IMG/VR virus record: IMGVR_UViG_3300031539_000178
Span: 1 to 32,456 of that record
DNA from: a virus
Direction: 5' to 3' (one strand)
Length of the DNA: 32,456 nt
Shown here: piece after piece, positions 38 to 32,456 of the stretch
How the letters are laid out: the number at the start of each line of letters is the position of its first letter
How positions within the stretch are numbered: position 1 is the stretch's first letter
Notes under the pieces: model-generated
What the model was told of the DNA's origin: nothing
What the model saw: the letters and a program-made list of their open reading frames with translations, nothing else
The model's database searches: none
Program-made: the position numbers and the translations under genes

Positions 38-51
38 GAGATGTTTTTAAC

Positions 52-2180: not shown

Positions 2181-2198
2181 GTTTTTATCTCCCTGTTA

Positions 2199-2206
2199 TA
2201 TTTAGA
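2199..2206 (-). promoter_or_regulatory. Late promoter box TCTAAATA with strong SD downstream
   Basis: The minus-strand TCTAAATA overlaps the TAA stop of the 1,167-residue fibre gene. It is followed by TAAC, then AGGGAGA (Shine-Dalgarno), and then the ATG of the 119-residue gene at 2180. This is the clearest promoter-plus-RBS arrangement in the window. Confidence 0.78.
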
Positions 2207-5705: not shown

Positions 5706-5713
5706 TATTTATC
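5706..5713 (-). promoter_or_regulatory. Late promoter box GATAAATA abutting the first ATG
   Basis: The minus-strand GATAAATA ends immediately before the ATG at 5705. By T4 rules transcription would begin about six bases further on, inside the annotated frame. This argues for translation starting downstream, at 5663. The box lies in the 45-base gap after the 111-residue gene. Confidence 0.68.
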
Positions 5714-5750
5714 AGTATTACTATTCTCTGTAATCTAACAATGTTTTGTT

Positions 5751-6086: not shown

Positions 6087-6101
6087 TTCTTATCTTTTTA
6101 G

Positions 6102-8983: not shown

Positions 8984-8984
8984 A

Positions 8985-13100: not shown

Positions 13101-16100
13101 CTATCATATGGACTCTCTACATAAGTATCAGATGGATTATTGTATGGGCCGTACTTATGATTTGCAGTTGCTACTCTGAATGAAATTGAAGGTAAGGTTA
13201 TTGCCTGAACATTCTCAGTATTATTGGCTGCAGCCATTTCACCATTAACAGTCTCACCCACTACAAATGTTCCACTAATCATTTGAACTTCGACCAGTTT
13301 GTTGAAGGTAAAGTTAGAAACATCTACACCATCAAAGAATGGATAAACTTGAGTGAATGGCTTCAGACGTTTTGCAGTAACTTCAATATTACGAGATCTG
13401 ATGAAGTGAACCAGTTCTCTACTTACAACTCTATCACCAAGAGTTTCATTATTGATAACTTCAGTAACAGTTGATTGTGAACCTGTTCTCTGTTGATCCA
13501 GAGAAGTGGTATTTCTAATTGTAGTTGCATTACCAGTTGCACCCCATGGTGCTCGAATTCCGGCCTGATTAATTTGTTCCCTAGAAAGTTGTCTTCTTTG
13601 ACCAGTACTGTCTGTATCAATATCAACATTGACACCGACAGTTTCCCATGAGTCCCACTGAACAGGAGTAACACCAAGTCTGGATCCATCTTCTGCAGTA
13701 GTGACTTCTGCTTGAAGTGCCGAAGCAATTGCCTCAAATGCACCTTCATTTTCTACAGTTCTGGTTTCTAGTCTATTAACATCAATCCAGATATCAACAT
13801 CCGGTTCAAGAGAAATAGAACCATTCCAGAATTGTACCAGGTAAGGAGTTACACTCTCAGTTCTAGTAGCAAATGGTTGTACCAACCAGGAAGTGTCTGT
13901 ATAATCAAGAAGTACTGTTTGTCCTTTTCTCTTAACACCTTCTGCAACAATTTCAGCGAATCTGGAATCTTGATTTGCTTGAGTTGTAGTTCCAATTCCT
14001 GCAATTGCAGTAGATGCAACCTCCAGATTGATTGCAGTCGTATAATGAGATGGTCTCAGAACTCTGTTCTTAAGATCAACACTATTTTTAACCCCAATAG
14101 TAGTATCCTGAGGATTCAAAGTAGAGAAGTTATCGATAAAGATTCCACTCTTAAATCTGTTCAGACCATTTGAGTCAGGAACAAAGAGATTTAGTGTATT
14201 AGTTTCAATCAAACTTAGAGAACTATAATACTCAAGACTCTTAATTCTCTGCTCCAACTTAGAAATATCTCTCATCTGATATCTCTTATGTTGTACAACA
14301 GACACTCTTGCAGTTTCTGTTGTGTAAAGATATGCTGGGAGGAATATGTTTGCAATATTCAAAGAACCACTAACTTCATCAGGAAGTTTTGGATCATCTG
14401 ATGGAGTACCATACTTAATACTCAATCCACCATCTGGAGAAAGATAAACTCTATCAGCTCTTCCAAGATAATAATTATAATCAAGTGTCATTGACTCATC
14501 TGATGCAATAACATTTTTTGAACTATGTTGTCCAGTTACTCCACCATCAAAATCTCTTCCATAGAACTCAAGTGGAGATCTGGAATTTGCAGTGATAGAG
14601 TAATCTTTTACTCTTGGTCTTGCATCAACTATGTCAGTATTTCTGACTCCATCAATAGCATTGATTTCTCCATTATAATCAAAAGAATTATAAGAGTTTA
14701 CAACTGTGATATCACCAGTGTCGGCAGAATCGTAGAATGCCTTAGAATAATACACTCTTAACTGTCTTACAGGTGATTTAAAACCTGGTTTCCTTATTAG
14801 TCTGGAGTAGTCATAAATGGTCTCTCTTTGACCATTATCAAATGTATATTGATCTGTAATGTTTCTGGATCCAGCTTCAAATGTACCTACAATTCCACTT
14901 ACACCAGATTGACTGAACTGAACGACCTCATTCTTCTCAAAAGAAGTATCATTCAAATAAATGAATCCAACAGTTGTATCAGTCTTTCTAGTCAGATAAA
15001 AAGCTTTTGCACCACTGATTGTACCAGTAATGGTCTCACCTATAATGAGGTCATTTGTTGTTGCTGTAGGACCATCAAGAGACCCTAGAACCATACTTGG
15101 TGATTGCGCAGGACTAGTATTGGTAGATTCAAAAATACCGTGAATTTTGACAACATCAGGAACATTCAATGAAATCACAGAGTCTTGAACTCTGGTTCCA
15201 AATGGGTAGTTACCAAAGGTAAGTCCATCATTCAGACTAGTACCTGCAAAACCTGTATTTGTACCAGATGCAGAAAGTTTGGACTTATCAACAATAAGAC
15301 TATTTGATATTGATTTTCTCTTAACCTTGACAGTAACAGAACTCTTTCTCAGAGTTGTGATTAGGATTGAACCTGCAGAATCTGCACCAGAAAGACCAAT
15401 GATTTGAATAGTAGTAGAACCATTGGTAAGAACAACCTTATCAGAAGTCAGAACCTCTGTGGTTCCATTAGAGCGAATAAGAATATATCTCTCTTCATCA
15501 AATGGTAGGAAGGTTTCATTTGTTCCTGCATCAATTGCTGGAGTCTCTCCTTCAGCACTAATTGAAGTTTGGAACTGTTTTCTAATGACAAGATTAGAAG
15601 AACTAAGATCAACAGAAGATAGATTTTTCTTGGGAAAAATACTATAAAGAGACTGATTGGTGGATTCATTTCCACTTCCAAAGTTTCTTTGAACCTTACT
15701 ATTAACAATTGCTAGATCATTTACACTAGTAAGTACAGAAGGAACAGAACCTTCGACAACACCAGTGACTGTAGCAACACCGACAATTTTTAAAGCAGAT
15801 CCACTATTCTCAGTAATTCTACCAAGAGAAGGAACCGAACTAGAAATTGTGGTGTATTTTACCAGATTACCAACAGTAGCAATACCAATAAAGGATGTGG
15901 TTGCAGTTGTAATAGTTGAGATACCAGTCGCGGTATCACCAGCAGTCAAGGTTGCATTTCCAATAACAAAATTAGATTTTGGAACAATATTGGCAGTAAA
16001 CGTATTTGCTGCACCAACAATACCATAAACTGACTGAATATCAGAGTTACCATATGATCTAGAATCAATTACATATCTGTCATTATCCTTAACACCGTTA

Positions 16101-17674: not shown

Positions 17675-17680
17675 AATTCT

Positions 17681-19237
17681 TTAGAACTGCAAGATAATCT
17701 TTACATCTTCTTTCTGTGACGAAGACCTTGTTACGGAAGGTCTGTTATCAAGGAAAATAATGTTTCCAGAATACTTTTGAGACTCTGGTTGTGAAACACC
17801 ATTAGTGAAGGACTGACCAAGATAATATGTCCTACTATTTAGAACCGTCGAAACACCGGTAAATACTGTGTCAATACCCAAGTTAGCACTTCCTCCAACA
17901 ATCGTAATACTACCACCAGTAGTAGTATTACTAGTAAATCTATTCATATTAAATCCATATGTTGGATCAGGATTTAATGAACCATTGGTACTAAAACCTG
18001 CAGTTGACTTATCCTGCCAGTACTTCAGAACACCAGTAACTTGATCATATGAAACAACTCTACCAACAGCAGTTGATCCAAGACCAACTGTTTGAGTGAT
18101 GTATGCGTCCTGAGTAAATGTTGCTGAACTATAACCAGTACCAGTTAATCTAAGAGCATATACTGCACTGGCCTTATCAAGTGTAAGATTTGAACTTGAA
18201 CCCTGTGTATATGGATTTTCTACAAGTCCTACAGACGCAAACTGGTTACCAGTGATAAAATCTGGATTTTCAGTATCATTTTCAAATCTAGAATATGTCA
18301 GAACGTTATATGCACCTAGTTCTCTATAGATATCAGCACCATGACCACCTTGTGGTGGGACAATTACATTAAAAATTGGTAAAGTTGTACCAGTAGGAAC
18401 TCCACCAGATTCCCAATCAACAGAACCAAAGGTATATCCAGAACCTCCTTTGGAAATATTAATACTTTCTACTTTAGAGTCATTGTTGATAACAATGGTT
18501 GCTTCTGCACCATTACCATCGCCCTTAATAGGGACTCTAGTATATGTTCTATTGGCAGTACCAATACCAACACCGCGGTTTCTGATTGTGACGACCTTTA
18601 ATTGGCCACTGTTTGCAGCATTATCTCTTATCGGAGAATCTTTAGTGTTTGTATACCAATCATTAGGAACAGGAATATAGTTAGTCGAATCAAACTTAAT
18701 TGCCTGACTTGGGCTAATGGTATAAAGGTATTTCCAAATGTAACCATCACCACTACTACCCGCCTCTCTTGGTTCTAGATCAGTGAAAGTTGGTTCGTCC
18801 AGAGAAGGACTACCAACAAAGTTGTTTTCGGGGTCAGCACCATTATAGAGACAAATATAGACTCTATAATCACTATTCATTACATAATAATTAGCAGAAT
18901 ATAAGTCAAACGAACCCGAAGGTTGTGAAGGATTATTTCTACTAATATCATTACGGTACATGTCATAGGTAGTACCCGATGTCCAGGTTACTTTCCTAAC
19001 AACTTGACTTACATCACTTGCATTGATTTTTTTCAACGCAAGCATTGAATCCCATGTGTTACTGTAGGTTTCAAAACTATCAATCGGAGTGGGAGGATTA
19101 GAATCCCAGTTCGATTGATAATCAGTTGCATTAGGAATACCAATGAATGTATAATAAGAGTTTGAGCTGGACTGGATACCGGCAACAAAATTCTTAGCAT
19201 TCAATATTCTAAGTTGATCAGTAATTATTGCTGCCAT
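17681..19237 (-). CDS. gp8: Baseplate wedge protein gp8
   Basis: In T4, gp8 is a dimer in each of the six baseplate wedges, bound to gp7 and gp10. T4-like features: A-A-I-I-T-D at the start; Y-Y-T-F-I-G-I (28-34); the P-P-T-P-I-D-S segment (48-54); Y-R-V-Y-I-C-L-Y-N (124-132); G-D-G-Y-I-W-K-Y-L-Y-T-I (163-174; T4 has GDGYVWEYLFEI); and the C-terminus G-N-I-I-F-L-D-N-R-P...D-V-K-I-I-L-Q-F (T4: ENRPP...EEINILFTF). It has 518 residues against 334 in T4. The added middle, about 205-450, includes S-G-x-G-Y and R-G-V-G-I repeats. It follows the gp7-position gene after a 107-base gap holding two late boxes. The nearer one, ACTAAATA at 19256-19263, is 18 bases upstream of the ATG. Confidence 0.93.
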   Translation of the reverse strand: MAAIITDQLRILNAKNFVAGIQSSSNSYYTFIGIPNATDYQSNWDSNPPTPIDSFETYSNTWDSMLALKKINASDVSQVVRKVTWTSGTTYDMYRNDISRNNPSQPSGSFDLYSANYYVMNSDYRVYICLYNGADPENNFVGSPSLDEPTFTDLEPREAGSSGDGYIWKYLYTISPSQAIKFDSTNYIPVPNDWYTNTKDSPIRDNAANSGQLKVVTIRNRGVGIGTANRTYTRVPIKGDGNGAEATIVINNDSKVESINISKGGSGYTFGSVDWESGGVPTGTTLPIFNVIVPPQGGHGADIYRELGAYNVLTYSRFENDTENPDFITGNQFASVGLVENPYTQGSSSNLTLDKASAVYALRLTGTGYSSATFTQDAYITQTVGLGSTAVGRVVSYDQVTGVLKYWQDKSTAGFSTNGSLNPDPTYGFNMNRFTSNTTTGGSITIVGGSANLGIDTVFTGVSTVLNSRTYYLGQSFTNGVSQPESQKYSGNIIFLDNRPSVTRSSSQKEDVKIILQF

Positions 19238-19344
19238 TTTGTTAGGACTTTTTGTTATTTAGTTAGTTAAATAAAATCGTTTTCTTTCAACAGTAGGTTG
19301 CCCCTTAACTGACACAATATCACTCTAATCCATTATAAACTTAT
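19238..19344 (-). promoter_or_regulatory. 107-base intergenic region with tandem late promoters
   Basis: This is the longest non-coding gap in the window. It contains the near late box (19256-19263); the far box (19342-19349) overlaps its upstream edge. It has a perfect 7-base inverted repeat (TTATTTA, 6-base loop, TAAATAA) at 19255-19274 that includes the near box. No gene, strong hairpin or terminator was seen. A minus-strand ATG close after the far box is followed at once by GAT TAG and is not a gene. Confidence 0.6.
19256..19263 (-). promoter_or_regulatory. Late promoter box ACTAAATA (proximal to gp8)
   Basis: The minus-strand ACTAAATA is 18 bases before the gp8 ATG. The spacing matches the other late boxes here. 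It lies within an inverted repeat. Confidence 0.7.
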
Positions 19345-19349
19345 TTAGA
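19342..19349 (-). promoter_or_regulatory. Late promoter box TCTAAATA (distal to gp8)
   Basis: The minus-strand TCTAAATA overlaps the TAA stop of the 3,998-residue gene, about 104 bases upstream of the gp8 ATG. A second box closer to gp8 makes this a tandem arrangement. Confidence 0.62.
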
Positions 19350-22300
19350 CATAGTTGTCTGATTTAAGAGGACTATTTCTACTAACAAGACCAGAAGTTG
19401 ATATTCCTGTATATCCATTCGATGTATATGCAGTAAATGTCTCAATTCCTGTTCTTGTATTAAAGAGAATCTTACCCCAACTATATTGTCCTGTAGCAGT
19501 TGATCCATAACTAATACTACCAATAGAACCAACATTTGTTGTAATTCTTCTGACAGCTGTAATACCATAACCAGTAACGGTGATCATTTCTGTCGATACT
19601 GCCGCAACCTGATAGACTGCGTCAGAGTAAGTAATGGCAGTTCCAACAACATTGGACGTGGTGTCCTGTGTATTAAATGATCCCCCAGCGTCAATATTAG
19701 TATCAAATACAGTTAGATAATCACCAACATTAATTGTACTGACTGTAATACCAGTTCCAATCAAATATCCATCCCTCATAAATGAATCTTCTGGAATAAA
19801 GAGGTCAAATATGTATTTGTTTTGTGAACCAACCTTTGTAGTATTGAAACCAACAATGGTTCCATAATCTCCACTGTAGGAATTGATAGGAATTAATTCA
19901 CTAACAACTTCTGGGGTTTCAATAAGAACAACTGGTGGATTGGAAGATGTATAACCTGCTCCAGGATTTACAACTGTGATTGTATTGACCGATCCACCAG
20001 AGACAGTTGCGGTTGCAGATGCCCTCTGTGTCAATCCAATTCCTACAGGTGTAGAAATGACGACCTGTGGTGCAACTGTATAACCAATTCCAGGATTGGT
20101 GATGTTGACAGAAGTAATTGTTCCTGCGGAAGAAACAATTGCTGCAGCAGTTGCTCCAACCAAAGTATTTTGTGATACAATGTTAATGCTGTTTTGGAAG
20201 GATCTTGTAGTCGCTTCGTTCTCTGCCCCATAAAGAGGTCTTACTGAATCAACATATGCAACGGTTGATGCCAAACTTACTGGTTGAATCAGATAGGATG
20301 AAGGGTAGATCAGAGGCTCATAATGAGTTCTGTCCTTACCAACAACCTCACCATCAATAATCTTATCGACAAGTTGTTTACACCAGGTAACAGGTCTTAA
20401 GAGATTTGCGTCAGTTGTAATACCTGAACCACTATAAGGATTGGTGAATACAGAATCAATAGTGATAATGTCAGTAACTATTCTCAAATCTTCTTCAAGA
20501 CTAATACCCTGACCAAGTTCTGGGTTATTGTCAATGTCAAGACTATCACCAGGTTTGACAGTTTCTAGAATATCAACGAATCTAACATCAACACTACCGG
20601 TTCCTTTATAGAACAAAATCTTAGATGTATCACCTACCTTAGGTGCCTCAGTAAATTGAATGATACTACCACCCTTGAAGATATATGCACCTCCAGGAAC
20701 TTGTAGTATATCATTGATGAAGACAATTAAAGTTTGTTCAACATCAACAAGAGAACCTTTTGCAGCAACAATTGTAAATGGGTCTTCATTAAGTGTTATT
20801 TGGAAGTTAGTCTTCTGACCATCAAACTCATTATCAAGAGTATCGAGAACCTCTAATTCTCCAACAGACCAAGAGTTGAACTTATCATCATAAACTTCAT
20901 CGATCAGAAGTTGGAAGTTTTCAAATGTTACACTTGGATCAGTAGGAATACCAGTAGTTCCACCAGATTCAATTGTAAGTCTCTCACCATTACCATAACC
21001 AAATCCATAACTTCTAAGTGTGAAACTAATAACACTAGAACCTTGACCAACTACAATATCAACAGTTGCACTTTGGCCAGAACCAACATAACCAGGTGAG
21101 TAACTCAAAGGAATATTATCATAACTCAGTGGTTCATCAAATACAAGATCTGGAAGATTTGTTCCAGTGTATCCTACACCTGGATTTGTGATTGCAACAC
21201 TTACAATATGGCCACCACTTACCGCGGCAGTTCCAATAAATTCAATATTAGGAACACCTGTACTATAAGTCTGAACACCAACATTAACAACAGTTTGAAT
21301 ACCAGATCTATAACCAGAACCAGAATTTGCGATACTGACATTGGTAATTGTTCCAGTAGCAGAAACAGTTACGGTTCCACCAGCAGAAACAAGAGGCTGA
21401 TATCCAAATCCATTAGAAGACCCAACGGAAACCATCAGACCACCAATTGGATACTCGCCATTATTTGGATCATAACCAGTAGGAAGACCATTATTACCAG
21501 TGAATGTGATACTGGTAACACCAGTATTTTCGGCCATTCTATAATCACCAACTTGAAGTGAAGGTGGCTGATTTCCCGTAGGTTGTTGGAAGATGCCGTT
21601 AATAATAACAAATGGATTTTGTGTCGCAATACCAATAACATCAGAACCACCAACTTTCATACTAAATTCACTTCTAATACCAGTGAACTGATCAGAAATA
21701 TTATCATAGATATAATTTTGATAGTATGTTTCATTGGTCGAATTTATAAGACCAGATCTTATAAACGATCTTCCTTGGAAGGATGAGTAACTGGTAATAC
21801 CAGTCCAATCAGTTTCATCAGGATTTTCTGCTGTAGTGACACCAACTGGCTCTGTGCCTTTAGGTGCAGATGCAAAGTTCAAGGTGTTTCCAATAATATT
21901 ATACTCACCACTTAGTTTTTCGACTAGATCACCAGCAGAGTGTGATCCTCTTAAGGTTCCTAGTCTTCCTCTACGAACATTGATTGATGTTGTATTACCA
22001 ACTCCAACAGATGCGACAGTAACAATCTCATCACCAATACGAAGGTTATCGCCAGTGAAGATTGAAGTGATACCTGTAAGTAGGATGTCCTGTTGGAATA
22101 CAACATCTTGTGCGAGAGTTGTTGTAATACCAAAAGAAACAATTGGTGATTGGATAATATTATCAACTGCAAGAAGAACCTTCTGATTCTGTTTTGTTGC
22201 AGTAATACTATGTCCTGCACCAATACCAGTAGATCCGATACTTAGAACAACTGGATCAAGTTTCAGAGCATTTTCACTAGTAGTGGCAAACTTAAGATCC

Positions 22301-25300
22301 TTACTATTTGGAGCAACGACATATAGAGTTGTTGGTAACTTGTCAGTAAGACCGATACCAGGAACTGTTGTTGCAGCAATACCAATTGCTGCAGTTGTTC
22401 CTGCACCAGGAGAACTATAAACAACTTCCTCACCAGTTACAAAGAAGTGATTTGGAATGGATATACTATTATTTGTTGTTGAAACGATTCCAGGATCACT
22501 ACCATCAAATCCTCTCAAGAAAATCTGATCACCCTCATGCTTCAGGTCAAATGATGTTGCAAGATCAAGTAAAGTTCCTATGTAAGTTTCTTCATCACCG
22601 ATAATACGCAAATTATTCAAATTGATAAGATCTGGTCTACCACTATCAGTAGAAGGTTCCATTCCAATAGTGAATACTCTTACCTCAGCATTAATACTTG
22701 CATTAGGTGTATATGTAAGATTAAGAGTACCACTAGTCGTATCAATACCAACTTGACCTAGAGAACCACCACTCTTAACGTTTGCATATTCAACAAACTC
22801 AGATGGAGTAGTAACAGATTGAAGTGTGATAACTTCAAATGATTCATATTCGTTGTTAGTAGTATCTTCAACAGTAACAATATGGTAACCAGCTTCTGTT
22901 ATTCCAGAGTAACTAGCGATTGTATTTGCGGTGGGAGAACCAGATGCAGCGATTGAAGTAAATTTAGAATCTAGTTTTGCACTGTTTAGATAAGTTGTTC
23001 CTGCAACACCAGTATTATCGGAGGTAGCAATAATAGACGTATTGACAGTAAGTCCAACCCCAACGCTTGGGATGAGATCAACATCAATATTACTTCCATC
23101 AACATAAACATTGAAAGTACCAAATCCAGTTATATTAGTAGAAATATTACCGTACTCCAAGAAATATACGTCAGTTCCATCGTGAACCAAATTAAGTTCA
23201 TCTACAGAGTAGTTATTACTAGTATCTTCAATTTGTACAAGTAACTTGGCAGATCTATAAGTATTTGGAATGGAGACAATTGTTGTAGTTGTGCCAGCAG
23301 AAACATTGACATGAGTACTATCAACTTGAATAATATCACCGAATGAAGTTGTACCTATGCCACTAATATTGTCAAGAATACTAAATGATAGGGTATTGAC
23401 ATCGTAAGAGTTGTATGCAAAATTGATTGGATAAAATCTTAGTTCCCACTTTGTGGGGTCACCACTTATAACGAAGTCAAATGAGCCCAGATTATTTCCA
23501 CTATCAACCTCACCATATTCTGAAATATGTGCTGTATTATTGTCATGAAGAACAGAGACAAATTCGATTTGTCTCTGGTTAGTCAGAACCTGATCTCTAC
23601 AATATGTAAGAATTTTATTATAGGTATGACTTGTAGGGAAAACACCTACATTAGAGTATTTCTCCAATCTTACAACACTGTTGAAAGTGTCACTGAAATC
23701 ATCAATACTCAGAACCCTATTACCAAAAGATTCGTTATAATCTACAAGAATTTTATTATCAAAATTAATTTGATCGGAAGTTAAATTACTATCAACATAA
23801 AATGAATTTTCTGATACGTTATCAAAATCGTGCCAACAATGAATACTTGACTCACTAATGACATCAATGACAACTTCAACATCAGATTGTGCAGAAGTTA
23901 CAACTAAACCACCTGGGGTTTGTTCTGTAGATTCTACTCTTAGATCTGCAAACTTTGCAAGGCCTGCAACGTGACCAAGACTACTGACCGCATCATCCCA
24001 CTTATCAAAAGCTACACTGGATTTAAGTGAATATGAAAGATTTTGATAATATTCATTATTCGGAATTCTCTGAAGACTATCATTCAAGAATCCAGAGTTT
24101 GTTTTCCAACCATTAACGAATGTCGTTCCTGCACCCGTCGAAACAGTTGAATTGAAGTTTAATTTGTTCTGAACAATGACTTCTGTTCCAGAAGACCCAC
24201 CAATAACTTTAGAACCAATTTCAAATTCATTAGGAGTAGAAACTACTAATCTTCTGTTAGTTGGATTCCATCTTTCAACAACACCTTTCTTAGTACCAGA
24301 AGTTACAACCTCGTCAATATTGAATTGATTTGGTTTTAAGGTAATGTCAAATACTGGGAAGTCGCTTTCAGGAATTGCTCTACCTACAGATCTTGTAGGA
24401 TCCATTATACCTGGGTTCTCACCAGACCTTAGGTATCCATTAAGATTGTAGTCGAAGTATGCACCAGAACCACCAATTTGAGAATCAAATCCAGTTACTT
24501 CGAATAATGTATAGTTGTAATTTTGAGAATTGTATCCCCTACCTGTAGAACCGATACCAATAGAGATACCTTCGATCAGTACCTTTTCTCCGGTTCTGTA
24601 TCTAAAGTTTTGTGGTTCACTAAACTGAGCACTCAAAAATACTCTGACATTTTTAGTAGCTTCTGTATAGACAACTGAAGAAATACCTACACCGTTAGAG
24701 TTTTTAACTGGGATGATCGTTGGAATGTTACTATAAAGACCATTAGTATTTTTAAGAATCTTGACTTCAGTATCACCAAGAGTGTATCTGATATCTACAT
24801 TCTCAACAACTTCACCAGTAAATCCATCAAGAATAACTAATTCTGGATTTACCAGATAATTTTTACCAGAAGAAGTGATACCAATACTATCAAATGATTG
24901 TAGTGCTTCTACTTCCAAAATCTCTGGAACATTTGTAACAACTTTAAGTGTTTGATCAGTGGGATAATTAAATCCAATATCCTCAAATTTGGTAGAAAGA
25001 ACTTCACCAATACTTTCACTGGTTAATGTGATTATTGCATTACTACCAATACCACTTCTTATTGAAGTAATACCAGGAAACTCTTTATAACCGGTACCAC
25101 CGTCACTAACATCAATTTTTGCAATAGGACCAAATGTACTTCTAGAATTTGTGGTGTACTTACAAATCGAATTAGAAGAATTGTATAGAGAAACATCGGG
25201 CACATCCTTAATACTATATTCAAATGTGGTTGTTCCTACACCAACAATGTTATAGTTACCATCATATAGTGACTTAATAACTTCAATACCGTTATATGAA

Positions 25301-28300
25301 CTTACGTCTTCATCAATAACAAGATCTGATTTGATTGATGGAACAATATTCAAGAAGTCCACATCAAACTTGTAGTATAATTGTGTTGGGACAGAATCAC
25401 GAACATTTAACTTGAGAGTTGCTGTTGTATCAATACCAGGTCTCCCACTCTTGACAACATCAAAAGTACTTGTTTTACCTGCAGTAAAGAAGATATTTGA
25501 ATACTCTCTGTCAGAGAATAGATTCATATCAAAGGCAGAGTATCTGGCCCCACCACTAATAAATGATAATGAACTGTCAGAAAGATCGAACGTAAGTGTA
25601 TTATTTTTCTTGGTTTGAACCTGTGGATTAATCTTGGAGAGTGTTCCAGTAGAGGCACTAGTAATATCAATGAAGTTTGGATTCTCTAAGTTGACCTCAT
25701 ATTTTTCTCTTACTAGTCTTACCATAGTGTCGTTGAAAGGAACTATGTAATAAATTGTATTATCTTCAAGACCACCAGAAGGTGATGATGAAGTGTGAAT
25801 AACTTTGTCTCCAAGTTTAAAGAACTCATCGGAGAAGGTAATAGAGTTTCTTACAATATCCACATCACCGGCAGTAAATGATCTTGGATCAAATACAATT
25901 CTTCTATTATAATCATCATACTTAACAATTACTGTATCTTCTAAATTTGGTTTAATTTCAACGTTAACTAAATCTCCTCTTACCAACCCATGAGTGGAAG
26001 AAGTTGATACTGTTACAGTATTTTTGGAAACCTCTGCAGTAACTACCTTGTTCAGGTTTGTAGTAAATTTATGTGTATTACCAGTACCAACATTAGTAAA
26101 GTAAAGAAGAGCTGTAGAAGTATTAACACCAACATAAACTCCAGTACTACCAAGTCCTACTTTATTGGAACTAATACCAATACTATTCTTAGAAAGTGGT
26201 ATTGCATAAAGATTTTGGTATGACGTGAGATTTACATAACCTGCAGAAGTTCCATTCCAAACTTGAACAGATGATCCACTGTTTGTAGAGTAGAAAATTG
26301 GATCATTCAATCTCAAATCATGATCAGGATAGTAGATACTTTGTGGTTGAACAAATACCTGAGTCAGACCAACACCTGGGTTTGAGAATGTAATGGTATT
26401 ACCAATACCTGTTCCCAATACAGTTCCAAGACCAACAGACTCTGCAGGATCAAAGTAGAGAGTATTGTTAATATTGAATGTTCTAGTAGTTTTTAATGTA
26501 CCAACATTGATACTAAACTTTTTAGGATCCTCAAAGAGGATAGAAGAGTTTGTATGTGGAGCACCATTAGATCCTTCTACAGCTCTTTGAACTCTGATTC
26601 TTCCTGTCTTCTTGTCAATGTTTAGAACTTTTACTTTCTCATTATCAACTTTAAAGATATCATCTGGTCTGATATATGGGAACTCAAGGAGACCATTAAC
26701 ATATAGGTATCCAACATCATTAGTATTTGCAGTAGAAATGCCAAGAGTCAATACAAAGTTGTCAGTTCTAACACCTACACGATAAGACTTATCAAATCCT
26801 CTAAAGTAAGATGAAAGACCACTTACGTTGACAACATCATTATTGTTGAATGAGTGAATCTGTGTCGAGAAACCAATGAAGGATCCATCATTAAAGGGCA
26901 CAAATTCAATATCATAAAATATCGTTGATGCAATACTTACAGTATCAATTGTCTTACCATCAAGTAATGTGACTCTTGCTTGAGCACCATTACCACCACT
27001 ATTCGAATTATCAAATACTACAGAATCGTTGATCTTATAGTTAGAACCACCGGTCAATATACCTACACCTTCTATAACACCCAGAGATGCTGAGGTTACC
27101 TCTATAACTTGTTTGTTGACAATATTGGAGTTGAAGATATAGTTATATCCAGTTTCTTCATTATCAAGGTTATAGTAATATGTGTTTCTCAACCAACGAT
27201 CACTTTGAATATCATATTCAGTTTGGTTGGAAGATGATCTGAAATTAAAGTTGTTCGGAACTGAATGATATGAATCACCAATCAGATAAGGGAACTGTGG
27301 TCTTCTGAATCCTTGGAAAGGGCCAATAGAATCATTGATTCCATTAATAGTTGCAAAGTATGCATAGACACCATTTGGATAATCTGGTGTTACACAAAAT
27401 CTACCGTTGTGTTCATCAAGATCGCCACCTCCAGTGTAGACGTAATCTTCAACGAAGAAACCTAAAGAATACTGGGAGGCAGATGGTCTGTTTACAGTGT
27501 TAGACCTTAATTCATATCCAGACTTCATCTCCCTTACAAAACCTGAACCAGAAGCTTCAGTGAAACCATATGGACCATAAATTGGATTACCATCATATGC
27601 CCAACCAATAATTGGTGAGTGAAATATATTTGAAACCTCAACACCATTTACCAGAGTGAGATCTGGAACACCATAGTTGGTATTATCTTCATCAGTTCCA
27701 GTAATGACAAAAGTATTCTGTCTTAATGGACGTGGTGCATACAAACAAGAGTATTGTAATTCATCATCATTAATACTGTTATCAAGAAAACCATCATCAT
27801 CACCAATGACATTGAGATTTCTTTCGAACAGGTTGATATTCCACTGGTTAATCATTGGATCAACCACAACTTCATTACCGGCAGCAGTTACCTTGATGGA
27901 TGTTTTATCGGGAACATAACCTGCACCAGCTTTGATAATTTTGACAGATACAATTCCACCATTCTTAAGAACTGGAGTAAGAACTGCATTCTTACCAGTT
28001 GATGTTTGAAGTTCAAGTTCAGGAGGAGAGTTATATCCACTTCCAGAATTATTAACCAACACATCTACGATCTGACCATTGTTAACAACAGGGATCAGAA
28101 TTGCACCAGAACCACTAAAGAGTGTTACTACTGGTTTTCTATCAAAGTTAATAATATCAGATGAACCATATCCGACACCACCACTAGTCACATCAATAGA
28201 TTCAACATTTCCTCTGAATACTGGTTGAACCTGACATGAAAAGTCCTGATCAGATCTGGTAGAAACACCAGTTACACCATTGACACTAACAGTGATTGGT

Positions 28301-31300
28301 TGATAGTTGAAAGATCCTGAACCAACTGATCTAAGTTCAACTTTAACATTTCTATCATAGTAATAATTAGTAGTGGTGTTTCCAGTTCCAACTTCTACAA
28401 GTGAAAACTTATCACCACTAAGTCTTACAACATAATAATCTTTGGATTCTACAAGACCTTCAATTGGCGAAGAACCAGTTGTATATCTTACGATTTCTTT
28501 TTCAGAGTAACCATGATTCTCAATAGTAAACTCATTTGATGCAGTATTAACACCAACAATATTTCTCTCTTTATTTTCGTATCCAGTACCAGGATTCGTT
28601 ACAACTACAGATGTGACAATACTTTTTAAAGTAGAAGACCTAAATCTATGAACACCATTACCAAATAAAGTTAAGCCAATGGTATTAATACCCGTAATAG
28701 AGTCATTTAGATTTTCGTAAAGTTTGATTGTCTTACTGTCCTCAACTCCAACGTAGTATGATGCCGTACTAGAAAGACCTCCAACGGCAGTCTGACCATC
28801 TGTTAGATAGATTACTTCCTCACTGTCTCTAAACTTGTGATAGGTGGAAAATCCAATGGTACTAGATCCCAAACTTACCTGTGCAGAATTCTGTTCTGCA
28901 TTAAATGATACACTATGAGTTACAGACGAAAGTCTAACTTCTGCGGATGCATTAATACCATTACCACCAGATATGGAGACAAAGGGTCTGTCTTGATAAT
29001 CAAAACCACTATCGAGAATATCAATTCTTTCTAACTGACCCTTGACATTTACAGTACCAGTTGCACCAGTTCCTACATTATCATCAATTCTTACGATAGG
29101 GGGATTGATAATATCATAACCCCTTCCACTATTTGTAATTTTAAGTTCGGTTATATTGCCATAATTCACTTTGTTAGGAGATTTATAGTTTAGAATCTCT
29201 ACACCATTATTCAGAATACCGGTGTATCCAGAAACAGTTTTATATTCACCACTCTTGTTTATAGGTGATAGTATTTCTCTATAGATTGATTGCGGTTCAA
29301 ATGTTTTATTGTAGAAATTGAAGTATTCAAATTTGACGTTTGATACTGTACCATTCAATGTAACAAAGATATCATTAAAAAGATTTGATCTACTTTTTGA
29401 AAGTTTGATACTAAGACTATCGACTCTCTTGACATAGAATACACCTTCAGTAACATTATCAAATGTTGATAGAACTGATGTAGTAATTGTATTTCCATCA
29501 CTATCTGTGGTTGTAGTGATAGATTTACCTGGAGTGTAGTAGATAGCATCACCAGTATAAAAACCATGATCACCACTATTCAACAGTTGAATAGTATTAT
29601 TAGTCGCAGTACCACTAAATGTCAAAGATCTATTATATGGATTTATTAAAACATTTCTGTATGATGGAATTGAATTGGATGAAACAAGAAGGTCGTCATT
29701 AAACTTAGAGTAAGTATTCTGAACATTTGTAAAATACTTATTCAAATAAGAATACTTCGTCGAGTTTGTATAAAGTATTTGGTTCTCTGCTCTATACTCT
29801 TTTGACGAATCAAGTAACGTTTGTGTATTTACTGAAAACTCTTTTCTAGAAGAGATTGCCGAAACAGTTCCTTCGGTAATAATATTATTTTTATCAATAA
29901 AGTGAACTTTATTACCAATCTCTAAGAGATGATCTTCATTTAAAACAATACTATATTTTTTTGAACTAAGATCAGTTAAATTGAATGATTGTACTTTCCA
30001 ACCAGTTTTAATATTTAAATTCCAGTTTTTTGTTTTCTCTGTATTCTTCTCAATACCAATAGACTGAATTTGAATTGTATCATCCTTCTTTAGAGAAAAG
30101 TTCTTCTCCTCAAAGGTAATGTTCTTAAGTGCTGTAGAGATCTTTACCTCAATCTTCTCTTGAGACTCACTTTGATCGACATATGCATAAGCAAGATTGT
30201 ATAGGGTAATATCTGTTCCCTTTTTGATTATATTACTTACTGGAGAGACGTTAAAAAACTGATTATTGTTTTTGGTCGAGTATGATGCAATATACTCATT
30301 GGCATCAACATCAACAGTGTCTAATGTTCCTTCTTCTGGAAAACCAACTGTCGAATCTACATCAATGTATGTTGAACCAATTGAAACGTCATTTAGAACT
30401 TTTGTCTTTTGATTTGGTACAAAAGAACCTAAAACAGTACCGTCTACATTGATATCTCTCTGATACCCAAGATCAAGACTGACTTGATAGTAAACTACTC
30501 CATTATATACGACGGGTCTGACATTACTTACAGAACCTCTGGCCCCACTACTGTCCTGGAAAAGAGTTTTATTCCTGAGATCCATAGGATCACCAAGATA
30601 TTGCTCAACAATAATATCATTGGTTACCTTGAAGTTTGCATTGGAAGGTCTTAATAGAAACTCACTGGGTCTGATAACCTCTACATCTTCACCATAAAGT
30701 GCTCTGAAAAGAATTTCAAAGGATCTATCAGTTCCTTTTGATTTATAAAAACTATCTGAATGATATATAAAGTTCTCTTGATTCAATCCAGAATATAAAG
30801 TTCTATCTTCAAAACCAGGGACAACTTGTGACTTTAGTTTTAATAAAAACTTTTGTAAGAAGAGAATATTTAAATTCTTTATTTCTGTATTTTTAGTGTG
30901 AGTATCAGCCTCTGTTGTAGTGAATACTAACTCATCGGGAGTGTTGGATCCTTCATATGACGTTACTGCACTAAAACCCCTTCTACAGTTCTCAAAAGTT
31001 ATATCAGTTTTATATTCGTAGTAAATAATCTCATCGTCAATCTGAATCAAACCATCTCTAGTTGGAAATCCTTCGGTAAAGTTTTCTGTAGAGTTTGTCG
31101 TAATTGTCGTATCAGTATATGATAAATCTGCACCAAGAATTGTGGAGGTTTTGAGGTGGGTTAATTCCTCAACCTTTACATATTGGTCAATATTCTGAAC
31201 AATATCATATGTTCCACTTTCAAATTCTTGTGAAACATAATATTGTTTTAAGAAATCAACAAGAAGTGGGTAGTCGTCTCTAACATAGTCGGGAACTTGG

Positions 31301-31341
31301 CTCTCGACAATATTCTGGAACTTAATTCTATCTACTGACAT
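19345..31341 (-). CDS. Giant baseplate protein in the gp7 position, with YHYH domain (3,998 aa)
   Basis: This gene lies between 6 and 8, where T4 has baseplate wedge gene 7 (1,032 aa). Residues 20-40 (DDYPLLVDFLKQYY) and 192-222 (F-I-Y-H-S-D-S-F-Y-K-S-K-G-T-D-R-S, then F-E-I-L-F-R-A-L-Y-G-E-D-V-E-V) resemble the C-terminal third of T4 gp7, which has Y-D-F-Y-S-T-K-G-I-E-A-S-Y-K-F-L-F-K-V-L-Y-N-E-E-V-E-I. So the N-terminus is probably the wedge-binding gp7 equivalent. The rest is a long beta-rich array. It contains about fourteen S-G-x-G-Y/N-P-G-x-G-Y repeats; a YHYH-type domain with HSPIIGWAYDGNPIYGPYG from residue 1241 and L-D-E-H-N-G-R from 1308; three I-D-x-E...R-G/A...H modules; and a V-F-I-N-D-I-L-Q-V-P-G-G-A-Y fibre-type domain near 3540. 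The start is 6 bases after the gp6 stop with no separate late box, so it is probably co-transcribed with gp6. gp7 orthology is inference; baseplate structural protein is firm. Confidence 0.82.
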   Translation of the reverse strand: MSVDRIKFQNIVESQVPDYVRDDYPLLVDFLKQYYVSQEFESGTYDIVQNIDQYVKVEELTHLKTSTILGADLSYTDTTITTNSTENFTEGFPTRDGLIQIDDEIIYYEYKTDITFENCRRGFSAVTSYEGSNTPDELVFTTTEADTHTKNTEIKNLNILFLQKFLLKLKSQVVPGFEDRTLYSGLNQENFIYHSDSFYKSKGTDRSFEILFRALYGEDVEVIRPSEFLLRPSNANFKVTNDIIVEQYLGDPMDLRNKTLFQDSSGARGSVSNVRPVVYNGVVYYQVSLDLGYQRDINVDGTVLGSFVPNQKTKVLNDVSIGSTYIDVDSTVGFPEEGTLDTVDVDANEYIASYSTKNNNQFFNVSPVSNIIKKGTDITLYNLAYAYVDQSESQEKIEVKISTALKNITFEEKNFSLKKDDTIQIQSIGIEKNTEKTKNWNLNIKTGWKVQSFNLTDLSSKKYSIVLNEDHLLEIGNKVHFIDKNNIITEGTVSAISSRKEFSVNTQTLLDSSKEYRAENQILYTNSTKYSYLNKYFTNVQNTYSKFNDDLLVSSNSIPSYRNVLINPYNRSLTFSGTATNNTIQLLNSGDHGFYTGDAIYYTPGKSITTTTDSDGNTITTSVLSTFDNVTEGVFYVKRVDSLSIKLSKSRSNLFNDIFVTLNGTVSNVKFEYFNFYNKTFEPQSIYREILSPINKSGEYKTVSGYTGILNNGVEILNYKSPNKVNYGNITELKITNSGRGYDIINPPIVRIDDNVGTGATGTVNVKGQLERIDILDSGFDYQDRPFVSISGGNGINASAEVRLSSVTHSVSFNAEQNSAQVSLGSSTIGFSTYHKFRDSEEVIYLTDGQTAVGGLSSTASYYVGVEDSKTIKLYENLNDSITGINTIGLTLFGNGVHRFRSSTLKSIVTSVVVTNPGTGYENKERNIVGVNTASNEFTIENHGYSEKEIVRYTTGSSPIEGLVESKDYYVVRLSGDKFSLVEVGTGNTTTNYYYDRNVKVELRSVGSGSFNYQPITVSVNGVTGVSTRSDQDFSCQVQPVFRGNVESIDVTSGGVGYGSSDIINFDRKPVVTLFSGSGAILIPVVNNGQIVDVLVNNSGSGYNSPPELELQTSTGKNAVLTPVLKNGGIVSVKIIKAGAGYVPDKTSIKVTAAGNEVVVDPMINQWNINLFERNLNVIGDDDGFLDNSINDDELQYSCLYAPRPLRQNTFVITGTDEDNTNYGVPDLTLVNGVEVSNIFHSPIIGWAYDGNPIYGPYGFTEASGSGFVREMKSGYELRSNTVNRPSASQYSLGFFVEDYVYTGGGDLDEHNGRFCVTPDYPNGVYAYFATINGINDSIGPFQGFRRPQFPYLIGDSYHSVPNNFNFRSSSNQTEYDIQSDRWLRNTYYYNLDNEETGYNYIFNSNIVNKQVIEVTSASLGVIEGVGILTGGSNYKINDSVVFDNSNSGGNGAQARVTLLDGKTIDTVSIASTIFYDIEFVPFNDGSFIGFSTQIHSFNNNDVVNVSGLSSYFRGFDKSYRVGVRTDNFVLTLGISTANTNDVGYLYVNGLLEFPYIRPDDIFKVDNEKVKVLNIDKKTGRIRVQRAVEGSNGAPHTNSSILFEDPKKFSINVGTLKTTRTFNINNTLYFDPAESVGLGTVLGTGIGNTITFSNPGVGLTQVFVQPQSIYYPDHDLRLNDPIFYSTNSGSSVQVWNGTSAGYVNLTSYQNLYAIPLSKNSIGISSNKVGLGSTGVYVGVNTSTALLYFTNVGTGNTHKFTTNLNKVVTAEVSKNTVTVSTSSTHGLVRGDLVNVEIKPNLEDTVIVKYDDYNRRIVFDPRSFTAGDVDIVRNSITFSDEFFKLGDKVIHTSSSPSGGLEDNTIYYIVPFNDTMVRLVREKYEVNLENPNFIDITSASTGTLSKINPQVQTKKNNTLTFDLSDSSLSFISGGARYSAFDMNLFSDREYSNIFFTAGKTSTFDVVKSGRPGIDTTATLKLNVRDSVPTQLYYKFDVDFLNIVPSIKSDLVIDEDVSSYNGIEVIKSLYDGNYNIVGVGTTTFEYSIKDVPDVSLYNSSNSICKYTTNSRSTFGPIAKIDVSDGGTGYKEFPGITSIRSGIGSNAIITLTSESIGEVLSTKFEDIGFNYPTDQTLKVVTNVPEILEVEALQSFDSIGITSSGKNYLVNPELVILDGFTGEVVENVDIRYTLGDTEVKILKNTNGLYSNIPTIIPVKNSNGVGISSVVYTEATKNVRVFLSAQFSEPQNFRYRTGEKVLIEGISIGIGSTGRGYNSQNYNYTLFEVTGFDSQIGGSGAYFDYNLNGYLRSGENPGIMDPTRSVGRAIPESDFPVFDITLKPNQFNIDEVVTSGTKKGVVERWNPTNRRLVVSTPNEFEIGSKVIGGSSGTEVIVQNKLNFNSTVSTGAGTTFVNGWKTNSGFLNDSLQRIPNNEYYQNLSYSLKSSVAFDKWDDAVSSLGHVAGLAKFADLRVESTEQTPGGLVVTSAQSDVEVVIDVISESSIHCWHDFDNVSENSFYVDSNLTSDQINFDNKILVDYNESFGNRVLSIDDFSDTFNSVVRLEKYSNVGVFPTSHTYNKILTYCRDQVLTNQRQIEFVSVLHDNNTAHISEYGEVDSGNNLGSFDFVISGDPTKWELRFYPINFAYNSYDVNTLSFSILDNISGIGTTSFGDIIQVDSTHVNVSAGTTTTIVSIPNTYRSAKLLVQIEDTSNNYSVDELNLVHDGTDVYFLEYGNISTNITGFGTFNVYVDGSNIDVDLIPSVGVGLTVNTSIIATSDNTGVAGTTYLNSAKLDSKFTSIAASGSPTANTIASYSGITEAGYHIVTVEDTTNNEYESFEVITLQSVTTPSEFVEYANVKSGGSLGQVGIDTTSGTLNLTYTPNASINAEVRVFTIGMEPSTDSGRPDLINLNNLRIIGDEETYIGTLLDLATSFDLKHEGDQIFLRGFDGSDPGIVSTTNNSISIPNHFFVTGEEVVYSSPGAGTTAAIGIAATTVPGIGLTDKLPTTLYVVAPNSKDLKFATTSENALKLDPVVLSIGSTGIGAGHSITATKQNQKVLLAVDNIIQSPIVSFGITTTLAQDVVFQQDILLTGITSIFTGDNLRIGDEIVTVASVGVGNTTSINVRRGRLGTLRGSHSAGDLVEKLSGEYNIIGNTLNFASAPKGTEPVGVTTAENPDETDWTGITSYSSFQGRSFIRSGLINSTNETYYQNYIYDNISDQFTGIRSEFSMKVGGSDVIGIATQNPFVIINGIFQQPTGNQPPSLQVGDYRMAENTGVTSITFTGNNGLPTGYDPNNGEYPIGGLMVSVGSSNGFGYQPLVSAGGTVTVSATGTITNVSIANSGSGYRSGIQTVVNVGVQTYSTGVPNIEFIGTAAVSGGHIVSVAITNPGVGYTGTNLPDLVFDEPLSYDNIPLSYSPGYVGSGQSATVDIVVGQGSSVISFTLRSYGFGYGNGERLTIESGGTTGIPTDPSVTFENFQLLIDEVYDDKFNSWSVGELEVLDTLDNEFDGQKTNFQITLNEDPFTIVAAKGSLVDVEQTLIVFINDILQVPGGAYIFKGGSIIQFTEAPKVGDTSKILFYKGTGSVDVRFVDILETVKPGDSLDIDNNPELGQGISLEEDLRIVTDIITIDSVFTNPYSGSGITTDANLLRPVTWCKQLVDKIIDGEVVGKDRTHYEPLIYPSSYLIQPVSLASTVAYVDSVRPLYGAENEATTRSFQNSINIVSQNTLVGATAAAIVSSAGTITSVNITNPGIGYTVAPQVVISTPVGIGLTQRASATATVSGGSVNTITVVNPGAGYTSSNPPVVLIETPEVVSELIPINSYSGDYGTIVGFNTTKVGSQNKYIFDLFIPEDSFMRDGYLIGTGITVSTINVGDYLTVFDTNIDAGGSFNTQDTTSNVVGTAITYSDAVYQVAAVSTEMITVTGYGITAVRRITTNVGSIGSISYGSTATGQYSWGKILFNTRTGIETFTAYTSNGYTGISTSGLVSRNSPLKSDNYV

Positions 31342-31347
31342 TCTTTA

Positions 31348-32456
31348 TTATCTGATGAGAGATCCGTTTGTATAACTGGATGATACTATGTAATTTGTAC
31401 CCGAAATATCATTACCAGAGGAAATGTTATCGGAGATGGTACTTATTGTGGATTTTGAACTGTCCAACTGTAAGTAGAGATCCTGATAACCGATTACATC
31501 GTTTGAATATGGAGAAATAGAAATTTCAATTAGTGGAACAGCCCTACTCACAACTGTTGATATAATATTGATTGGATTCAGTTTAATTTCACCTTTAACA
31601 TAATCAATAGTTCCAATTGACTGTTTCAATATGACAGGTTCTGTTGGGGAGTTCAACTTGAACAAGAATATGGATCCTGTCTTCAAATCAGTGCTCGGTC
31701 TATCACTGAGATAAACGGTATCACTGATACCACTAACCTTAAATCCTGATGATTTAATGTTGTAACCAAGTTCACTCTTGACGTGGAAACGATTTCCGTA
31801 ACAAATTTCATATTCGGTAAAACTATTTAACACAGGTTCCAAATCCCTTCTCATGGTCACTGTGGTGATATTCGAAGTTATCGAAACATTACTGTCGTCA
31901 ATAATTTTTTGAAACTTACTATACTTAAATCTCGCACCGAATCGATTCAACCCTCCAGATTTTGAATATCTATCAATGTTCTGAATGATCAATGTCCTAA
32001 CAAAATCAGCAGAAGGTGCAACTTCTGTATTGTAATATGCTTTGACATCAGTCTCAACATACAAATACTTTAGATCAACAATCTCTGGAAGAATACCGAC
32101 AACAGAATATTTCTTCAAATCATCAATAAGATTCTCTTTGATATCGATAGAAAGATATACTCCATTATTTGGTTTCACACTTATAAAGACCTTACCATAT
32201 GCTGGAGGTGTCAGAACCTCTCCACCAAATGCAGATACAGATTCAGTCTCTGTATAAAGTTTAGGAACAAGCGCTTCATAGTCGGCTGCAGTAACTGCCC
32301 TGTTCTGTGATGCATAGATCTGTGTTGAATATTTCTTAACGGATTCGGTAGATTCAATATCCTTTCCACCATAGGAAGCAGTATTGATAGTTATCAGTGA
32401 GATACCGTTGTTAACTGCAATACCATTATTATCTACCAGAGTACCAGAGAATCTAA
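31348..32456 (-). CDS. gp6: Baseplate wedge protein gp6 (3' part, start outside window)
   Basis: gp6 forms the inner ring of the T4 baseplate and links neighbouring wedges. The frame is open to the window edge, giving 368 residues. An in-frame GTG at 32178 is internal, because family sequence continues upstream of it. Family features: N-R-A-V-T-A-A-D-Y-E-A-L-V-P-K-L-Y, then T-E-S-V-S-A-F-G-G-E, then P-P-A-Y-G-K-V-F-I-S-V-K-P-N-N-G (the T4-gp6/gpJ-like [AG]-[VI]-T-x-x-D-Y-E pattern). Downstream are V-G-I-L-P-E-I-V-D-L-K-Y-L-Y-V and a C-terminal I-E-I-S-I-S-P-Y-S-N-D-V segment. T4 gp6 is 660 residues, so roughly half is visible. It is followed after 6 bases by the gp7-position gene. Confidence 0.93.
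   Translation of the reverse strand, partial: RFSGTLVDNNGIAVNNGISLITINTASYGGKDIESTESVKKYSTQIYASQNRAVTAADYEALVPKLYTETESVSAFGGEVLTPPAYGKVFISVKPNNGVYLSIDIKENLIDDLKKYSVVGILPEIVDLKYLYVETDVKAYYNTEVAPSADFVRTLIIQNIDRYSKSGGLNRFGARFKYSKFQKIIDDSNVSITSNITTVTMRRDLEPVLNSFTEYEICYGNRFHVKSELGYNIKSSGFKVSGISDTVYLSDRPSTDLKTGSIFLFKLNSPTEPVILKQSIGTIDYVKGEIKLNPINIISTVVSRAVPLIEISISPYSNDVIGYQDLYLQLDSSKSTISTISDNISSGNDISGTNYIVSSSYTNGSLIR

Follow-up and report, generated by a model that had tools for sequence, protein, structure and literature searches.

The window analysed here, a stretch of viral DNA of 32,456 nucleotides, encodes between gp6 and gp8 a protein of 3,998 residues that is most likely the gp7 of a T4-like cyanophage, with residues 1-300 as its wedge core and the remainder as a large peripheral baseplate body. 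Sequence profiles identify residues ~180-290 as homologous to the core of T4 gp7. Giant gp7 proteins built in this way are frequent among cyanophages, where public records already give them gp7-type labels, and the window protein is another of them.

The gp7 slot and the homology to T4 gp7

An earlier note on this DNA had placed a 4,000-residue protein in the gp7 slot, and the locus bears this out. The gene is a single intact ORF with an ATG start and no internal stop, its product has a computed mass of 434.7 kDa (~435 kDa), and Pfam and PHROG identify its neighbours as gp6 and gp8. An assembly artefact is unlikely because near-identical stretches are present in other IMG/VR contigs: residues 1-300 are 100% identical in two of them, and residues 1160-1480 match in the same two at 98%. 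The gene order is the same in P-HM2 and P-SSM2, with a giant gp7 between gp6 and gp8, while in S-PM2 and S-SSM7 a different gene follows the giant gp7, ahead of or replacing the annotated gp8. The genes and the N-terminal features are as follows.

31348..32454, minus strand: gp6, C-terminal part, running off the window (Pfam Gp6_C-I and Gp6_C-III; phrog_219)
19345..31341, minus strand: gp7-type giant baseplate wedge protein, 3,998 aa (single ORF; phrog_2885; collinear with Bellamy gp111)
31162..31341, minus strand: residues 1-60, predicted helical N-terminal segment, candidate core-bundle helices (AF2, Pfam PF23786 traces)
30868..31161, minus strand: residues 61-158, small beta-barrel between helical segment and core (AF2 model, VIA matches)
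30475..30801, minus strand: residues 181-289, gp7 core, homologous to T4 gp7 703-813 (hhalign, PDB profile search, reciprocal HMM)
17681..19237, minus strand: gp8 (Pfam Phage-Gp8, E 6e-13; phrog_438)

The resemblance to T4 gp7 had been noticed by eye, and profile comparison confirms it. Residues 181-289 align with T4 gp7 703-813: an hhalign comparison of the cyanophage core profile with one built from 8 T4-type gp7 proteins gives a probability of 96.9, E 1.6e-10 and a score of 73.8, against a mean of 15.0 and a maximum of 28.6 in 200 column-shuffled controls, and three control pairs all had probabilities below 1. The profile search of residues 1-300, which the earlier note had named, alongside a structural comparison, as the test that could refute a gp7 relationship, found one. 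Against 177,635 PDB sequences it returned six matches up to E 10, the top two being T4-type gp7 (E 0.00088 and 0.0017) and the third unrelated (E 0.23); phmmer with residues 1-300 against PDB gave a single chance match (E 1.6). An HMM of the T4 core recovers the same segment from the ORFs of 255 loci (window protein, E 6.4e-5), and a full T4 gp7 HMM run against 12 window proteins clearly matches only the 3,998-aa ORF (E 7.6e-6; next 0.18). The homologous core surrounds an F-Y-x-S-K-G-type motif at residues 198-222 (FYxSKG at 198-203). Its T4 equivalent lies at 734-758 of 1,032, which makes the earlier description of T4 gp7, ~1,030 residues with the like segment near the C-terminus, a fair one. 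The alignment of residues 1-300 comprised 28 non-redundant full-length segments taken from 80 loci, or 29 members with the window's own; an earlier core profile omitted one 144-aa stub, and 80 further loci were scanned only as ORFs, for repeats and with the T4-core HMM, and not aligned.

The similarity to T4 gp7 is limited to ~110 residues of the window protein. No counterpart was found for the parts of T4 gp7 outside the core (~1-700 and 815-1032), the full T4 gp7 HMM aligning only over positions 721-750, and hhalign finds no sequence match for the T4 N-terminus. The protein is therefore not classed with the gp7 proteins of the Straboviridae type. A candidate match between the window N-terminus and T4 gp7 ~109-130 was rejected (1.5 bits, iE 0.26; visual inspection shows it lacking in the remaining seven T4-type gp7 proteins).

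Ahead of the core, AF2 places helices at residues 5-15, 18-23 and 27-40 with low to middling confidence. Pfam PF23786 (Baseplate_wedge) is touched at E up to 1 by all 29 members of the alignment, the window protein scoring 23.1 bits, under the Pfam cut-off of 27. The beta-barrel is the region best predicted when AF2 models residues 1-330 (29 sequences). This model is weak overall (pLDDT 56.5, with block means of 32-49 over residues 171-240), and too weak in the core to be superposed on T4 gp7. VIA matches to this model lie mostly on the barrel (63-161); over 59-161 they include 9in6_M (Z 9.4, rmsd 2.4, 79 aligned) and the JBD30 baseplate chain 8rk3_b (Z 8.4, rmsd 2.2, 77 aligned), and the top row, 8jov_1, has Z 9.8 but rmsd 6.4. 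Many are ATP synthase chains, which we take as a probable sign of a common barrel arrangement, and gp7 is absent among the VIA matches listed. A Foldseek search of PDB with the same model returned 206 matches at E 10 but nothing, gp7 included, at 0.001 or better; the best was again 8rk3_b (E 0.062).

Giant gp7 proteins in cyanophages

The window protein matches phrog_2885, annotated 'baseplate wedge subunit', with 3,485 bits (best stretch 4-3362), and its homology to annotated members of that family is full-length. Bellamy gp111 (4,067 residues) is collinear with it: a single alignment spans 3,997 of the 3,998 residues at 43.5% identity, and the identity is fairly even lengthwise (33-57% per 200 residues). 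A search with residues 1-300 hits 390 phage records, every one cyanophage or marine by name, and 'gp7' or 'baseplate wedge initiator' are frequent labels among the matches listed. All of the 16 relatives that were sized, a hand-picked and non-random set, are giants of 1,937-7,124 residues, which puts the window's 3,998 in the mid-range; seven of them were sized by gene extent alone, without neighbours (S-SCSM1, ACG-2014f, ACG-2014e, S-RIM2, ACG-2014d, S-ShM2 and DSL-LC02). The earlier suggestion that the gp7 slot had been 'rebuilt' here is too strong, since giant gp7 proteins of the same layout are common and are labelled gp7 in cyanophages, and since the small gp7 counterpart of XM1 likewise starts with a wedge core.

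The helical segment, the core and the YHYH domain were each found by HMM in all 10 cyanophage gp7 proteins compared, among them the window's own, and the small barrel is likewise kept in the set; in this test KBS-M-1A was covered for 5,447 of 6,395 residues and P-SSM7 for 5,439 of 7,124. Bellamy gp111 and the gp7 of P-SSM2, P-HM2 and S-SSM7 resemble the window protein in their position after gp6, helical segment, barrel, core and YHYH, whereas the cyanophage relatives differ from it in sequence and in their middle and C-terminal domains. In the gp7 of P-SSM7, KBS-M-1A and S-SZBM1 the core lies at ~650-777 (HMM), because of a ~500-residue insertion inside the small barrel. Two homologues (HMM) have been detected by mass spectrometry in purified virions, data that concern these homologues and not the window phage: S-SZBM1_208, of 6,619 aa (71 peptides, 13.5% coverage; PMC9146016), and S-CREM2 ORF122 (91 unique peptides, 27.2%; PMC10665884). 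No cryo-EM baseplate structure turned up for any marine T4-like cyanophage in the open-licence literature.

T4 gp7 shares gene position and core with the window protein, but its 1,032 residues are disposed differently, with ~700 ahead of the core and ~220 behind, while in the window protein the core starts at ~180 and ~3,700 residues follow. An N-terminal core is nothing unusual in itself, given the gp7 counterpart of phage XM1, and in the three cyanophage giants mentioned the core lies further in, at ~650-777. As described in the published account of the XM1 structure (PMC10457771), gp17 has 242 residues, with its core-bundle helices at residues 1-48, so that it likewise has an N-terminal wedge core, and the parts leaving the core bear host-contact apparatus. 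In XM1, separate spike proteins attach to gp17, whereas in the window protein the extension lies within the same chain. Speaking against a cyanophage gp7, one publication lists gp7 among the genes common to non-cyanophages (PMC3037559).

Repeats and the YHYH domain

The earlier note had reported beta repeats in the long C-terminal part. Recurrence is confirmed, iterated HMMs identifying two families, YYV-type and GSGY-type; the beta fold is likely from sequence. Self-BLAST of the protein gives no internal pair at E 1e-3, though iterated HMMs detect the repeats. The YHYH-type domain that had been noted is also found, as a match to Pfam PF14240 (E 1.4e-25, 90.8 bits against a cut-off of 25). The fibre-like domains could not be confirmed: for the whole protein, neither PDB (up to E 1) nor NCBIfam (up to 0.1) gives a match. 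In all, 1,796 of the 3,998 residues lie in assignable segments, including three weak ones. The repeats (iterated HMM) and the YHYH domain are placed as follows.

29341..29622, minus strand: residues 574-667, YYV-type repeat
28939..29181, minus strand: residues 721-801, GSGY-type repeat pair (seed)
28642..28917, minus strand: residues 809-900, YYV-type repeat (seed)
28312..28575, minus strand: residues 923-1010, YYV-type repeat
28141..28347, minus strand: residues 999-1067, GSGY-type repeat
27865..28086, minus strand: residues 1086-1159, GSGY-type repeat
27118..27807, minus strand: residues 1179-1408, YHYH domain (PF14240 match 1241-1332, 27346-27621)
26119..26364, minus strand: residues 1660-1741, YYV-type repeat
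25642..25875, minus strand: residues 1823-1900, YYV-type repeat
24937..25146, minus strand: residues 2066-2135, GSGY-type repeat
22216..22494, minus strand: residues 2950-3042, YYV-type repeat
20950..21363, minus strand: residues 3327-3464, GSGY-type repeats
19825..20181, minus strand: residues 3721-3839, GSGY-type repeats

The GSGY family also occurs in gp8 and in the neck protein gp14 (iterated HMM). YHYH is not found in T4 gp7 by HMM, unlike in the window protein, and the scans did not report the two repeat families for T4 gp7 either. An AF2 model of the YHYH region (40 sequences) reached a pLDDT of 42, too low for a structure search, and phmmer of the region against PDB returned nothing up to E 10; the alignment drew on 39 of 80 loci, hand-chosen for spread, with one locus removed for a stop in the segment.

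Role in the baseplate

We propose that residues 1-300, presumably in one copy per wedge, would pair with two copies of gp6 and so form the wedge, the part that gp7 plays in T4 and gp17 in XM1. The other 3,700 residues would exit the core C-terminally and form a large peripheral body carrying the repeats and YHYH, of ~2.6 MDa in six copies. Together with a 2,522-residue protein in the position of T4 gp9-gp12, this body would probably serve in host contact and triggering, and YHYH might bind a metal and cleave surface polymers, a metal-binding or hydrolase role on the host envelope being a published prediction (PMC7824862). The even identity along the protein, unlike that of a fast-changing adhesin tip, fits a structural body better than it fits a receptor-binding fibre. 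A link to the host through mutation is weak. S-PM2d081, a gp7 homologue by HMM, was 'hypothetical' in a coevolution study (PMC9910659), which reports in it non-synonymous mutation #3 by day 39 with the host and at day 500 lists it once more with the ORFs that had late mutations; because the deposited genome also contained most of the early alleles, selection by host contact on this gene is suggestive only. For S-TIM4, tail fibre and baseplate genes are reported to have mutated as the phage adapted to its host (PMC6224464), mutations that could not be assigned to gp7.

Alternatively, the extension may be, rather than an outward projection, a compact, load-bearing body at the baseplate rim that replaces the functions of T4 gp9, gp10 and gp11, while separate fibres make the host contact. 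We consider this a serious possibility, though not the favoured one, since conservation is even along gp7, the GSGY family is shared with structural parts (gp8 and gp14) not known as receptor binders, and the window has a separate fibre-type ORF (2202-5705); the proposed action of YHYH on the host envelope (PMC7824862) and the mutation of the S-PM2 homologue during coexistence with its host argue against it. It is very unlikely that a VrlC-type protein (10106-17674, 2,522 aa) fills the gp7 slot and that the 3,998-aa ORF is a separate host-recognition protein. The 2,522-aa ORF is VrlC-type by 32% identity to the part of P-HM2 VrlC compared, and T4 gp7 has been called absent from pelagi- and cyanomyophages, where in the wording of one published comparison it 'appears to be substituted' by VrlC (PMC7029224). 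However, among the 12 window proteins the T4 gp7 HMM gives the VrlC-type protein E 0.89 against 7.6e-6 for the 3,998-aa ORF, and the VrlC-type gene is located beyond gp8 rather than in the gp6-gp8 interval. Even more improbable is a chance motif in a large adhesin merely located between gp6 and gp8: the T4 match covers only ~110 residues and is without structure-based support, but the profile tests and shuffle control agree and the gene order recurs in P-HM2 and P-SSM2. The earlier idea of a ruler or tape of domains setting a length is scarcely credible, for although the length is great and variable among the 16 relatives, homology points to a wedge protein, and S-CREM2, whose tail is reported as the longest of any isolated cyanomyovirus (~418 nm; PMC10665884), has the shortest gp7 of the 16 (1,937 aa).

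Returning to a gp7 with a wedge core and a peripheral body, we tentatively suggest a wider reading, possible though rather doubtful, in which gp7 is an open platform: one wedge core would take large additions at two places, and the cyanophage chain and the VrlC-type protein would together replace the jobs of T4 gp9-gp12, with a YHYH enzyme within the wedge. The two sites are inside the barrel before the core (~500 residues in P-SSM7, KBS-M-1A and S-SZBM1) and after the core (~1,600 to 6,300 in the cyanophages sized); the ~700 residues before the core in T4 gp7 do not necessarily occupy the same insertion place as the cyanophage ~500.

As the profiles indicate, the cyanophage giants in the gp7 slot are true gp7 relatives and not replacements, which counters the printed statement on VrlC substitution and gives S-PM2d081 a gp7 identity. 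The cyanophage wedge protein exceeds T4 gp7 in size by a factor of ~2 to 7. If gp7 is indeed an open platform, the YHYH enzyme, envelope-processing, would be physically part of the wedge.

Gene block and likeness to T4 gp7

The record (32,456 bases) carries tail and neck genes of a T4-like cyanophage, and the entire block lies on the minus strand.

Genes in block order
gp6, C-terminal part; minus strand; first in the block
19345-31341; minus strand; gp7-slot ORF, 3,998 aa, after gp6
17681-19237; minus strand; gp8, after the 3,998-aa ORF
10106-17674; minus strand; DUF4815/VrlC-type ORF, 2,522 aa, phrog_358 (unknown function)
gp13-type head-tail adaptor; minus strand; after the VrlC-type ORF
7568-8992; minus strand; gp14 (neck protein), after the gp13-type gene
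gp15, gp16, then fibre-type genes; minus strand; after gp14

The 19345-31341 ORF is intact, with six bases between the gp6 stop and its ATG, and other IMG/VR contigs carry segments highly similar to it. The interval from gp8 to the gp13-type gene, which in T4 holds gp9, gp10, gp11 and gp12, is filled here by a single VrlC-type ORF. The fibre-type ORF at 2202-5705 (1,167 aa) has PHROG matches to tail fibre and wedge; the 119-aa ORF downstream of it (1821-2180) has no Pfam or PHROG match. Beyond these, the 588-aa ORF at 55-1821 shows seven-bladed beta-propeller similarity, matching Pfam Lactonase as a whole protein (E 2.2e-8, no single stretch passing) and no PHROG at 1e-5.

The likeness to gp7 that the earlier note had seen by eye is genuine, as profile-profile, PDB profile and reverse HMM searches and a shuffle control agree. 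A cyanophage profile covering residues 1-330, drawn from four cyanophage records and from relatives on viral contigs, was compared with a profile of eight T4-type gp7 proteins (T4, RB49, IME13, Nando, LPCS28, AS-yj, K491 and F86). In hhalign, residues 181-289 of the window protein, the core with its FYxSKG motif, paired with T4 gp7 703-813 (probability 96.9, E 1.6e-10 for the single comparison), and three control pairings of other parts each had a probability <1. The real score was 73.8, against 28.6 for the best of 200 column-shuffled T4-type profiles. When a profile of 29 N-terminal segments was searched against 177,635 PDB sequences, six matches were obtained up to E 10. T4-type gp7 proteins took the top two places, 5hx2 with its relatives at E 0.00088 and 9f4a at E 0.0017; the third match is unrelated (E 0.23). 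Conversely, a T4 core HMM was searched against 664 ORFs from 255 loci and the 12 window proteins; of its 216 rows, the best 45 (E 1.4e-11 to 9.8e-8) placed the match on this segment in ORFs of the cyanophage gp7 slot, a check of position and not of uniqueness, since most of these loci were collected as relatives. The window protein itself was matched at residues 192-223 (E 6.4e-5). The full T4 gp7 HMM gave the window protein E 7.6e-6 and gp8 0.18 among the 12 window proteins, a database so small that these values are meaningful solely as a contrast. Neither hhalign nor this HMM found any part of T4 gp7 in the window protein beyond the core. The core is among the poorest parts of the AF2 model. 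Homology, as judged from sequence profiles, shows a putative wedge anchor in the window protein.

Position of the core

In all 10 cyanophage gp7 proteins searched with HMMs of window segments, the window's included, an N-terminal helical segment, the core and the YHYH domain are present, always in that order. The core starts at ~150-175 in seven of them and at ~650-664 in P-SSM7, KBS-M-1A and S-SZBM1, because in these some 500 residues part the two halves of a small barrel (second halves weak, iE 0.0008 to 0.07). Within this set, then, the core lies early more often than not, and large additions occur at two places. In XM1, gp17, the 242-aa gp7 counterpart, is reported to have its core-bundle helices at the N-terminus, and two gp17 regions leaving the core hold the tail spikes (PMC10457771). 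Given the early core in seven of 10 proteins and, by analogy, the XM1 helices, the N-terminal position looks more like the wedge protein's plain form than like a rearrangement.

Relatives and prior labels

Giant gp7 proteins are not new, being already in public phage records. By tblastn, residues 1-300 matched 390 phage records (334 Synechococcus, 34 Cyanophage, 18 Prochlorococcus and 4 Marine by name), 160 of them with coverage of at least 80%; among the 60 matches listed, many are labelled 'baseplate wedge initiator', 'gp7' or 'structural protein'. The YHYH region matched 463 records (40 listed with details), named Synechococcus (372), Cyanophage (61), Prochlorococcus (24), Marine (5) and 'Actinomycetia' (one). 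Bellamy gp111 (4,067 aa, 'baseplate wedge initiator') aligned to 3,997 of the 3,998 window residues at 43.5% identity. Sixteen hand-picked relatives range from 1,937 to 7,124 aa, and the window protein is mid-sized.

Sizes of sixteen hand-picked relatives
S-CREM2, 1,937 aa
DSL-LC02, 2,514 aa
S-SSM7, 3,007 aa
S-PM2, 3,048 aa
ACG-2014e, 3,495 aa
Bellamy, 4,067 aa
S-SCSM1, 4,120 aa
ACG-2014f, 4,225 aa
P-HM2, 4,454 aa
P-SSM2, 5,195 aa
S-ShM2, 6,198 aa
S-RIM2, 6,378 aa
KBS-M-1A, 6,395 aa
S-SZBM1, 6,619 aa
ACG-2014d, 6,817 aa
P-SSM7, 7,124 aa

In the S-SSM7 locus (17992-36870), the gp7 label is attached to two large genes of about 3,000 aa each, with a 340-aa gene between them.

The status of gp7 is less settled in the literature than in sequence records. 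It is placed among the large divergent genes of a non-cyanophage set, with divergent cyanophage copies expected (PMC3037559), and elsewhere T4 gp7 is stated to be absent and apparently substituted by VrlC (PMC7029224). In this block the VrlC-type protein is encoded after gp8 by the 2,522-aa ORF, with 32% identity to part of P-HM2 VrlC and 46% to part of Bellamy gp113, and the full T4 gp7 HMM found no gp7 match for it among the 12 window proteins (E 0.89). At the level of sequence, this would run against the substitution statement.

The extension and its probable role in host contact

Two repeat families, named here for their GxGY and YYV motifs, recur in the window protein. For the GxGY family, 10 of the 12 listed stretches, some overlapping, are at iE 0.001 or better, and the YYV family has six (iE 2.2e-8 or better). 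GxGY stretches also occur in gp14 (within residues 189-361) and gp8 (206-269); it looks as if this domain has spread among several virion proteins of one phage (gp14, gp8 and gp7). The YHYH domain, for which a published prediction proposes metal-dependent hydrolase activity (PMC7824862), lies at residues 1179-1408. Identity to Bellamy per 200 residues varies from 33% to 57%, with no hypervariable tip; residues 3201-3600 are most conserved (56-57%), and residues 1201-1400, in the YHYH region, come second (52%). No counterpart of window residues 3201-3998 was found in the S-SSM7 alignment.

Proteomics has reported two gp7 homologues in CsCl-purified virions: S-SZBM1_208 (6,619 aa; 71 peptides, 13.5%, emPAI 0.41; PMC9146016) and S-CREM2 ORF122 (91 unique peptides, 27.2%; PMC10665884). 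Both match the window protein by HMM at the N-terminus, core and YHYH. S-PM2d081 (3,048 aa; 15986-25132 of the S-PM2 locus) is, by HMM match, the gp7 of S-PM2. A coevolution study in chemostats, where it is listed as 'hypothetical', reports a non-synonymous mutation (#3) in it by day 39 and names it again at day 500 among ORFs with late mutations (PMC9910659). According to its authors, most early alleles were already in the deposited genome, and these mutations therefore support host-related selection weakly. We infer that the extension forms a peripheral body that probably takes part in contact with the host.
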